64,000 nucleotides of DNA from the NCBI RefSeq assembly GCF_008831045.1, contig NZ_WAJS01000016.1, positions 1-64,000 on the forward strand, written 5' to 3'. The first letter of the stretch is position 1; every line of letters starts with the position of its first letter. Position numbers and translations under genes: made by a program. Origin of the DNA: Adlercreutzia muris (GTDB lineage: Bacteria; Actinomycetota; Coriobacteriia; Coriobacteriales; Eggerthellaceae). Shown piece by piece: positions 16,486 through 36,684 of the stretch. The notes below the pieces were generated by a model that was given only the letters and a program-made list of their open reading frames with translations, was not told the origin of the DNA and made no database searches.

Positions 16486-16602
16486 GCGACAAAAATGACG
16501 TTCGAGCGAGAGCCGGAGGATGCGGGCGCGACAATTATGACGTTCGAGCGAGCTTTTCGGCCGTTGCGGGAGCCATAAGGCTCGCCCAAACGTCATTTTG
16601 TC
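16486..16602. repeat. Three-unit repeat set, locus C
   Basis: Two direct units at 16486-16510 and 16528-16552 share GCGACAA, then ATGACGTTCGAGCGAG with three or four variable bases between. A third, inverted unit lies at 16581-16602 and reads GACAAAATGACGTTTGGGCGAG on the minus strand. The order (+,+,-) and the core GCGACAAA, about seven bases, then TTCGAGCGA resemble the units of the 121-bp elements at 23264 and 28734. The set occupies the gap between the kinase gene and the terminator of the convergent flavin reductase gene. Confidence 0.7.
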
Positions 16603-16683
16603 ATTCGGAAGCGACCCTTGTGCGATGGGGTTGCTACGGGGCGGCGCGAAGCGGTCTCTGCGCTTCGTAACGGGCTATGTCGC

Positions 16684-23052: not shown

Positions 23053-23587
23053 GGTGCCTCCAAAGTTGTGTTTGCTTCCCTGTATTCTATCGGGCGGCGG
23101 CGCTCGGAGGGCGCAATGGCCCAAAGGCAAGTAAATTGTTCATAATTCGGGCGGCGGTCCGCTGTGGCGGTTCGGCGCTTTGGCCGAAGAGTCGCCGCCG
23201 CGGATGCTTGGACGGGCCAATTGCGGCTACAGTAGGACCCTCTTCGCGCCAATCGGACATTTCTGCGACAAATGATGCGATCGGGCGACATTTCCTGCGG
23301 GGAAAGACCCTGGAATGCGACAAATCTGTCGATCGGGCGACATATTGCGGCAATGGATGTCGCCCGATCATGCGATTTGTCGCATTTCAGGGCAAAAGCT
23401 TGGGAAGCGGGGAAGCGCGCAAAGCGCGGAGAGTCCGCGGGGCGCGTGGAGGGAGGAAAGCGCTGGATCAACCGAGCCTGCCGAGCCCACTGAACCTGCT
23501 GAACCTGCGGCATGCGTCGAGCTCGTGGAGGGGCCTCGTTGTCTGCGCGAACGCGTTTCCTCAGCGAGGCCCGCCCCTCCACAAGGC
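23053..23587. other. 535-base intergenic region between degV and the luxR pseudogene
   Basis: It holds the 121-bp element at 23264-23384. The parts on each side show no supported gene. TAGAAT on the minus strand near 23083 could be a degV -10. The stretch 23400-23587 has no open frame with a credible start. Confidence 0.5.
23264..23384. repeat. 121-bp three-unit element, copy A
   Basis: Three 30-base units lie at 23264-23293 (+), 23316-23345 (+) and 23355-23384 (-). Each reads TGCGACAAAT, five variable bases, then GATCGGGCGACAT and two more bases. The variable pentamers are GATGC, CTGTC and CGCAT. GCGACA occurs twice per unit, 20 bases apart. The outer units are inverted relative to each other, so the element can fold into a long hairpin. 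The element at 28734-28854 has the same length and unit offsets in reverse orientation. Confidence 0.85.
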
Positions 23588-27362: not shown

Positions 27363-28670
27363 ATGAATTTGTACCTCTCCCATAGCACCGCGCTTCGCTT
27401 TTGGCGCGCCTGGTCGGCCGCGGCTGCCGTGCCCTTGCATGCCTTCCACGACCTGGGCGCCGCCGAAGCTGCGCTGTTCCCCGATCGCTTCTTCGCCGCA
27501 TCGGAGGTGCTTTTCCGAGCCGTCCGCACCGATCGAGAGATTCGGGAGGCGTTGCGGCGCGCGGCAGCCCCGGGGGATCCCTCTGCGGCGTCCGCCGCCG
27601 AGAAGGCCGCTGATCCGGCGGCCTCCGTCGCGCCGGGCGCCGCTGCCCCGCGGGTGCCACCGGCCTCCGCCGTGCTAGGGGCTGCAACGTCGTGCGCGGA
27701 CTCGCTGGAGATAGCGGCCGCCACTGCGCCGGGCGTGGTTGCGCCGGGGGCGCCGGCTGCCGATGCGGCGTCAGCGAGCGACGCGGTGCTGGCGACTGGT
27801 GCCGTGGCGGTGGCGCTTCGCACGGCATGCTGTTCCGATAACGGCTCGGTGCATGTTGTGACGACCAGCTGCGGAGGTTTGCGCAACTCGACCGCCGCGA
27901 CCCGCCATCGGATCGGGGGCGCCCTGCCGCGGGGATCATTTCTCAAAGTGGCCCCGGGCGTGTTCGTGTGCTCTCCCGAGCTCGTCTTCGTCCAGATGGC
28001 CGCAAGCGTTCCCCGTGGCGCCCTTCTCGCGCTCGGCTACGAGTTGTGTGGCTGCTATCCGGTCGGGGGCGATCGGGCGGGCGCCCTCGTGCGTCGGCTC
28101 CTGACCGCCCCGCGTCGCCTGTCGGCATTCGCCGCCCGCGCGACGGGGCTCGCGGGCGTGACGGCGGCCCGCGCGGCCGCAAAGCAGGTGCTTGCCAAAT
28201 CGGGCTCGATCATGGAGACAGAGGTGTCCATCGTGGCCTTCTCCTCCGTGGCCCAGGGCGGGTTGGGGCTTGTGCCGCCGAAGCTGAACGAGCCGGTGAT
28301 GCTGTCCGCCCGGGCGAAAGAGGCGACGGGCCTGAGCCGCGTTGTGTGCGATTGGCTGTGGCCCGAGGCGCGGGTGGCTGTCGAATACGACGGACGCGAC
28401 TCCCACGCCAGCCCGCAGCAGCAGGCCCGCGATGCCCGCAAGCGCGATGCGTTGCGCATCGACGGTTTCGACCTGACCGTCATCACGAGCTCTCAGTTCC
28501 ACCACGTGACCCAGTGCACGGCGCTGCTGCTGGGCGTGGGCCGTCGCGTCGGGCCGAGGAAGCGCAAGCTGAGCGCCGAGCACGTGCCCCGGCATTTGAC
28601 GCTGCGCAAGCAGGTGCGCGCGCACCATCGCGAGCATTTCCCCTTTCTCTTCAAGAAGAGCCGCTCGTAG
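27363..28670 (+). CDS. Protein with a DUF559/Vsr-like nuclease-fold domain and a long Ala-rich insert
   Basis: The product is about 435 residues. The N-terminal part begins MNLYLSHSTALRFWRAW, which resembles a small helical domain. Residues of about 65-150 are an Ala/Pro-rich, low-complexity insert. A middle region reads VAPGVFVCSPELVFVQMA. The C-terminal half has VAVEYDGRDSHASPQQ, DARKRDALRIDGFDLTVIT, the acidic-E-x-D, His and Arg pattern of DUF559 and very-short-patch-repair-like PD-(D/E)XK folds. Related proteins in Eggerthellaceae are hypothetical, some annotated as AbiEi-like antitoxins. Nuclease activity and any partner are unproven. The start is uncertain. It is a lone gene beside the 121-bp element at 28734. 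Confidence 0.6.
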   Translation: MNLYLSHSTALRFWRAWSAAAAVPLHAFHDLGAAEAALFPDRFFAASEVLFRAVRTDREIREALRRAAAPGDPSAASAAEKAADPAASVAPGAAAPRVPPASAVLGAATSCADSLEIAAATAPGVVAPGAPAADAASASDAVLATGAVAVALRTACCSDNGSVHVVTTSCGGLRNSTAATRHRIGGALPRGSFLKVAPGVFVCSPELVFVQMAASVPRGALLALGYELCGCYPVGGDRAGALVRRLLTAPRRLSAFAARATGLAGVTAARAAAKQVLAKSGSIMETEVSIVAFSSVAQGGLGLVPPKLNEPVMLSARAKEATGLSRVVCDWLWPEARVAVEYDGRDSHASPQQQARDARKRDALRIDGFDLTVITSSQFHHVTQCTALLLGVGRRVGPRKRKLSAEHVPRHLTLRKQVRAHHREHFPFLFKKSRS

Positions 28671-28733: not shown

Positions 28734-28854
28734 TGCGACAAATCGGCTAATTGGGCGACATCGCAGAGCGTCATATGTCGCTCGATCGACACATTTGTCG
28801 CAGATCGGGTCTCTTTTCGAGAAGAAATGTCGCCCAATCGCGGTATTTGTCGCA
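28734..28854. repeat. 121-bp three-unit element, copy B (reverse orientation)
   Basis: Units lie at 28734-28763 (+), 28773-28802 (-) and 28825-28854 (-). On their own strands all begin TGCGACAAAT, then CGGCT, GTGTC or ACCGC, then RATYGRGCGACAT. The offsets 0, 39 and 91 equal those of copy A read on its minus strand, and the two 121-base sequences align without gaps. Outside the outer units the palindrome extends with GGGGAAA and TTTCCCC. Confidence 0.85.
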
Positions 28855-36496: not shown

Positions 36497-36684
36497 CGAG
36501 CACTTCTCGCTTTTTTGGACAAAAAGGCTTCGAGTGCGCTGTCTCGAAGGTTCCGCTGGCCGCCCGGGGTCGAAATAAGCGGTTTTCGAGCCCTTCCCGG
36601 GGTCATTTGAGCCCGAATGGGATCATTTTCTCCTTGCGGGAGCTCACTCGACGCACTTTTGTCCAGGATTGCGCAATGTGCTCG
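36497..36684. repeat. Intergenic element with 54-base imperfect inverted ends
   Basis: The left end 36497-36550 and the reverse complement of 36632-36684 align along their length, sharing CGAGCAC, TGGACAAAA, TCGAGTG, GCT and AAGG blocks. The left end contains GCGAG-CACTT-CTCGC followed by six T (36496-36516), a terminator-like hairpin. The ends recall the GACAAA...TCGAG pattern of the three-unit repeats, so it may be a relative. No coding capacity. Confidence 0.6.

Follow-up and report, generated by a model that had tools for sequence, protein, structure and literature searches.

In the Eggerthellaceae, genes of a nuclease-like protein family are usually bordered by short elements built of inverted units. 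At the level of sequence, the elements carry units peculiar to the gene that they border, their outer units point inward and stand apart in steps of 10.5 bp, their centre is in phase with these units, and the units are better conserved than the spacers; subfamilies A, B and C, in which dispersal was searched for, also have further copies scattered in the same genomes. We propose, with a little more confidence than doubt, that every element serves one member of this Vsr/EDxHD-fold nuclease-like family as a composite binding site, and infer that the element is bound, cut and copied.

The window, i.e., the whole 64,000-nucleotide stretch of Adlercreutzia muris DNA (genome G000) analysed here, holds three such elements of types A and B. 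The initial annotation had described a three-unit repeat at 16.5 kb, and the repeat is real, its units lying where they had been placed. A first type B unit, GCGACAAAAATGACGTTCGAGCGAGA, lies at 16486..16511 (+), a second at 16528..16553 (+), 42 bp from the first, and a third at about 16581..16604 (-), at +96. In the window the gapped core is matched nine times with at most two mismatches, compared to 0.82 expected, and none of 100 shuffles reaches nine. The inner half TGACGTTYGRGCGAG occurs three times versus 0.04 expected. The third unit is present and inverted as described, yet it is degenerate (ATGACAAAATGACGTTTGGGCGAG), with two bases deleted and its first bases altered. The two other triplets are of type A. 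At 23.3 kb the units occupy 23265..23290 (+, conserved in A. caecimuris B7, genome G001), 23317..23342 (+, at +52) and 23358..23383 (-); at 28.8 kb an outer unit at 28735..28760 (+), which starts 65 bp 3' of the nuclease-like gene, is followed by a middle unit at 28776..28801 (-) and an outer one at 28828..28853 (-). The order +,-,- of the latter is +,+,- on the opposite strand, so that the orientation order is common to all three loci as had been noted, but the geometry at 16.5 kb differs. There the spacing is 42 and then 54 bp, the close pair being the direct pair and the inverted partner standing at +96, whereas at the two other loci the units of the direct pair are separated by 52 bp, 43 bp follow and the inverted partner stands at +95. 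The 28.8 kb triplet stands out from intergenic DNA that is badly diverged between G000 and G001, and Rfam gave no match within the window. Between the two type A loci, the FAD-binding reductase gene at 24853-26421 matches its Pfam profile over positions 2-298 of 414, and the rest of its frame seems shifted.

The 16.5 kb element sits between two convergent genes. At the corresponding site, 3' of a histidine-kinase gene, G003 carries a type B triplet and G001, G005 and G008 carry none. G000 retains two type B triplets, and its listed matches include no close homologue of the type B nuclease that is intact. Since such a nuclease is missing from these matches and the third unit is decaying, the 16.5 kb triplet is best read as a decaying, orphan type B copy.

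Seven type A/B triplets are found in the G000 genome; the window has three of them, and contigs C2, C3, C9 and C14 have one apiece. In nine Adlercreutzia genomes, the type A/B sites listed comprise 24 triplets, 6 pairs and 1 single unit cut by a contig end, a tally of listed sites that leaves G004, with its excess over control, outside; the genome-wide counts rest on pattern searches. Nearly all listed triplets read (+,+,-) or its reverse complement and lone units are almost absent, which agrees with the earlier suggestion that the triplet rather than the single unit is the object; among these genus sites, singles or random orders are not as common as (+,+,-) triplets. The third unit is peculiar to types A and B, however, and what the other subfamilies generally have is an inverted pair around a common central motif. 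The sequences between the units of A/B triplets are unrelated from locus to locus, whereas the distances are not: outer units start 85, 95/96, 106 or 116/117 bp apart, in steps of 10.5 bp (R=0.97, n=24). Type A elements number five in G000 and three in G001, and type B elements about 14 in G003. One type B pair stands in outward (-,+) order with a spacing of about 81 (L071 2471-2575; also L252 from 1471). On G000 contig C14 (L025 708-3634) a type A triplet lies between the citrate synthase gene and a fragment repeating that gene's 3' end; in G001 such an adjacent copy is absent.

Type C, whose unit GCAGCAAACTCCGCGARRTAGA was taken from the paralogue G000:C3:98640, is a second dispersed subfamily. 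Its unit is matched 27 to 31 times in G000, G001 and G003, 23 times in G008, 12 times in G007, and three times in G004, all beside the type C nuclease gene of that genome; G002, G005 and G006 have no match and the reversed-pattern control gave none. About 12-14 dispersed inverted pairs per genome result, and the inward pairs are mostly spaced 94, 103/104, 114/115, 125-127, 134-137 or 146 bp, with one at 169, again phased at 10.5 bp (R=0.90, n=50). Between the outer units lies a central motif close to TTTTCCCAGGTCA (score 207 versus 145-156 in shuffles). Learnt on type C and scored on 41 independent elements of other subfamilies, the motif exceeds 95% of shuffles in 34 of the 41 and 99% in 22; types A and B are without it and have the third unit in its place. 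The distances to the left and to the right of the centre tend to differ by 0, 10-11 or 21 bp (R=0.93). Comparing G000 with G001, identity is 92.8% in the outer units and 91.7% in the centre, versus 81.8% in the spacers and 82.6% in the flanks.

The elements are tied to the nuclease genes by position and by sequence. An inverted unit pair at 20/24 or better occurs in 53 of 108 paralogue flanks, compared to none of 211 control stretches of 700 bp, and 38 of 54 paralogue loci have such a pair within 700 bp (at least one flank at 19 or better), the other 16 showing no clear pair. At 23 of 55 loci both flanks carry the same unit (at least 14/20), versus 8% across loci, and in G008 and G003 type B triplets flank both sides of one gene, a homologue of the window gene. 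A search by geometry only at other paralogues returned triplets of quite different sequences; the unit sequence varies between paralogues and the geometry persists. The orthologous nuclease upstream of the pyruvate-carboxylase gene has a 3' unit of type A in G000 and G001, GTGTGCAAAATC in G007 and GGAAGTTGTTGGGAGTTTTGCG in G004. That each subfamily may be matched to its own recogniser, as the initial annotation had supposed, is strongly supported by nuclease paralogues being bordered by their own unit subfamily. Dispersal was searched for subfamilies A, B and C, and the others are represented by bordering elements, except for one pair of a further subfamily in the window: its outer unit GGACAAAANNGCNTCGAGTGNGCT at 36517..36540 (+) lies between two genes, its inverted partner is at 36641..36664 (-), at a spacing of 124, and the pair recurs on contig C18 of G008 with a spacing of 125 (L176 949 and 1074). 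In G004, 3' of a nuclease gene, there is an array in the order (+,+,+,-,-) that departs from the phased arrangement of the other elements, three of its units following each other at only 30 bp (L246 1181-1373). Two candidates were discarded: in E. lenta the inversion repeat of 16 bp, GATAAGCGCGGTTATG (PMC13174815), is unit-like and has no inverted partner nearby, and abutting (-,+) palindromes, GCGAAAACCGTACGTTTCGGGCGACA, in other genera differ in layout. A single genome may hold as many as a dozen of these palindromes (L053, L060, L063, around position 1500).

The window gene at 27363..28670 (+) encodes 435 aa, with an AbiEi-like N-terminal part and a C-terminal Vsr/EDxHD-type domain, and its product is the proposed type A recogniser. 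Of 138 Eggerthellaceae genomes, 110 encode between 1 and 14 homologues, and the family is unnamed, with only weak Pfam matches to MTES_1575 and DUF559. Residues E210, D255, E266, H273 and D282 are invariant in 48 sequences and the window protein keeps E285, D330, E341, H348 and D357. In a confident structure model of the G008 homologue (pLDDT 93.3, pTM 0.92), residues 205-323 match I-Bth0305I (3r3p; Z 10.7, rmsd 2.3, 96 aligned) and Vsr (Z 8.4). Residues 1-202 resemble, at a middling score, the second (C-terminal) domain of AbiEi (6y8q; Z 6.8, rmsd 3.8, 118 aligned); they align to AbiEi 67-195, and the AbiEi helix-turn-helix is without a counterpart. The neighbours of the window gene are a cytochrome c3-like gene and the pyruvate-carboxylase gene. 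Phage records gave no match to the family, and phage and plasmid records together gave one, a 900-kb Collinsella replicon. Outside the Eggerthellaceae, the Collinsella aerofaciens homologue (hypothetical protein WP_320678086.1) has an inverted pair just 3' of its gene (20/24, span 213; L253 3731-3943), which has no clear central motif.

Units of the elements do not behave as hairpins. Six units of five subfamilies folded no better than -4.1 kcal/mol, with z between -1.35 and 0.80. Since a hairpin is independent of helical turns and single units do not fold, a hairpin reading does not fit, whereas spacing by whole turns over 85-170 bp agrees with two proteins that meet on the same side of a loop of double-stranded DNA. 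As to mobility, a clean empty site was sought at 16.5 kb, at the C14 locus and at several type C loci and none was found, and the presence/absence differences compared gave no clean junction of a precise insertion with target-site duplication. One absence of an element, between G000 and G001, is a 330-bp indel and others lie at larger rearrangements, a context that fits break repair better than clean transposition and proves neither. Of 12 type C regions of G000, 11 align with G001 and at least ten hold the element at the same place; any movement of elements would therefore be slow.

Based on these observations we suggest that cognate protomers would bind both outer units from the same side of the helix, and that a common factor, or a third protomer in types A and B, would occupy the middle and bend or loop roughly 100-200 bp into a closed complex. 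The nuclease domain may then nick or cut the element, and repair of the break may copy or maintain elements at intergenic sites, whereby nuclease and elements would be retained jointly, much like REPINs and their RAYTs. Cutting and copying of the element are suggested by the fold of the nuclease, by the position of elements next to its gene and by a copy number that varies. We would give even chances to the full proposal, in which phased three-site elements are kept up and propagated by their own AbiEi-like/EDxHD nuclease, paralogues and elements co-diverge, and a common central factor serves most of them. Several observations speak against the binding-site model. The DNA-reading part is putative and lacks a counterpart of the AbiEi helix-turn-helix, the type C nuclease of G004 has only its neighbouring elements, 16 of the 54 paralogue loci are without a clear pair, G000 holds two type B triplets while its listed matches include no type B nuclease that is intact, and the loci compared offer no clean empty site, any movement being slow.

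A regulatory role is possible, though we consider it rather unlikely. Here the proteins would be AbiEi-type repressors whose nuclease fold is dead or accessory, the upstream element would be the gene's own operator, and dispersed elements would be operators of a regulon, insulators or terminators. Helical phasing, as found here, is typical of repressor loops, corresponding loci of different species keep their units and residues 1-202 are AbiEi-like (Z 6.8); yet elements are as common 3' as 5' (30 versus 27 flanks at 19 or better), the 16.5 kb element lies between convergent genes, all five catalytic residues are invariant and the family has no counterpart of the AbiEi helix-turn-helix. Also in favour of this reading, the AbiEi site consists of two inverted repeats of 23 bp, at which the protein bends DNA, and the Rv2827c site has four, the gaps being longer by one helical turn (PMC7319586). 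These operators resemble the present elements in their inverted units of about 23 bp and in a spacing that changes by one helical turn; they are bent, as is proposed here, and the protein that reads them has a domain that residues 1-202 resemble at a middling score. By contrast, the units described here are 85-200 bp apart, on both sides of the gene and dispersed, and the family here, unlike AbiEi, has a nuclease domain fused to it in addition to its missing helix-turn-helix. Also unlike type IV toxin-antitoxin systems, the window gene has no AbiEii-like toxin (nucleotidyltransferase) gene adjoining it.

It is improbable, in our estimate, that the protein is a defence or toxin-like nuclease that the elements keep inactive as tethers or decoys and that is freed on disturbance. 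Vsr/EDxHD-type folds and AbiEi relatives do occur in defence systems and PADLOC returned weak matches to a methyl-directed REase, DpdF and a homing endonuclease, but the window locus has no linked defence genes, phage records are without a match, and the number of element copies varies, with about 14 at the upper end and nothing beyond the bordering ones at the lower. Least of all do we expect ordinary REP or MITE repeats that are unrelated to the nuclease and happen to be adjacent. The elements are short, mostly intergenic, inverted and multi-copy as such repeats are, and yet their unit sequence tracks the paralogue, no unit among the six tested is more stable in folding than its shuffles by as much as two standard deviations, none of 211 control stretches has such pairs, and phasing at 10.5 bp is combined with a common centre; to our knowledge neither phasing nor a common centre is a feature of REPs or MITEs.

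The system nearest in logic to the proposed nuclease-element association is REPIN-RAYT, in which short intergenic inverted doublets come in several 'flavours' within a genome, and every flavour has a gene of its own that the repeat borders (PMC3116915). Here too the repeats are dispersed inverted doublets that also border the gene. Unlike the Y1/HUH enzymes of that system, the present family matches MTES_1575/DUF559, I-Bth0305I and Vsr by Pfam, PDB profile and fold; its units do not form hairpins, its elements show 10.5-bp phasing and a common central motif, and the copies number tens, not hundreds. The C-terminal fold and catalytic residues are those of I-Bth0305I and Vsr, whereas the family here is free-standing, has many paralogues and is bordered by its own repeats.

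In the open-access literature on MTES_1575, DUF559, EDxHD and repeats in these bacteria, we found nothing describing an association of nuclease and element. The nuclease genes and their matching dispersed elements apparently form a large undescribed system in gut bacteria, with a function that is predicted from sequence. If true, a second, unrelated kind of enzyme would join the very short list of those with genome-wide repeat populations. The paralogues, about 50 loci of which were read, would offer a natural experiment on the joint change of a DNA-acting nuclease and its sites, and an unnamed protein family of most Eggerthellaceae gains a context, with testable sites named.
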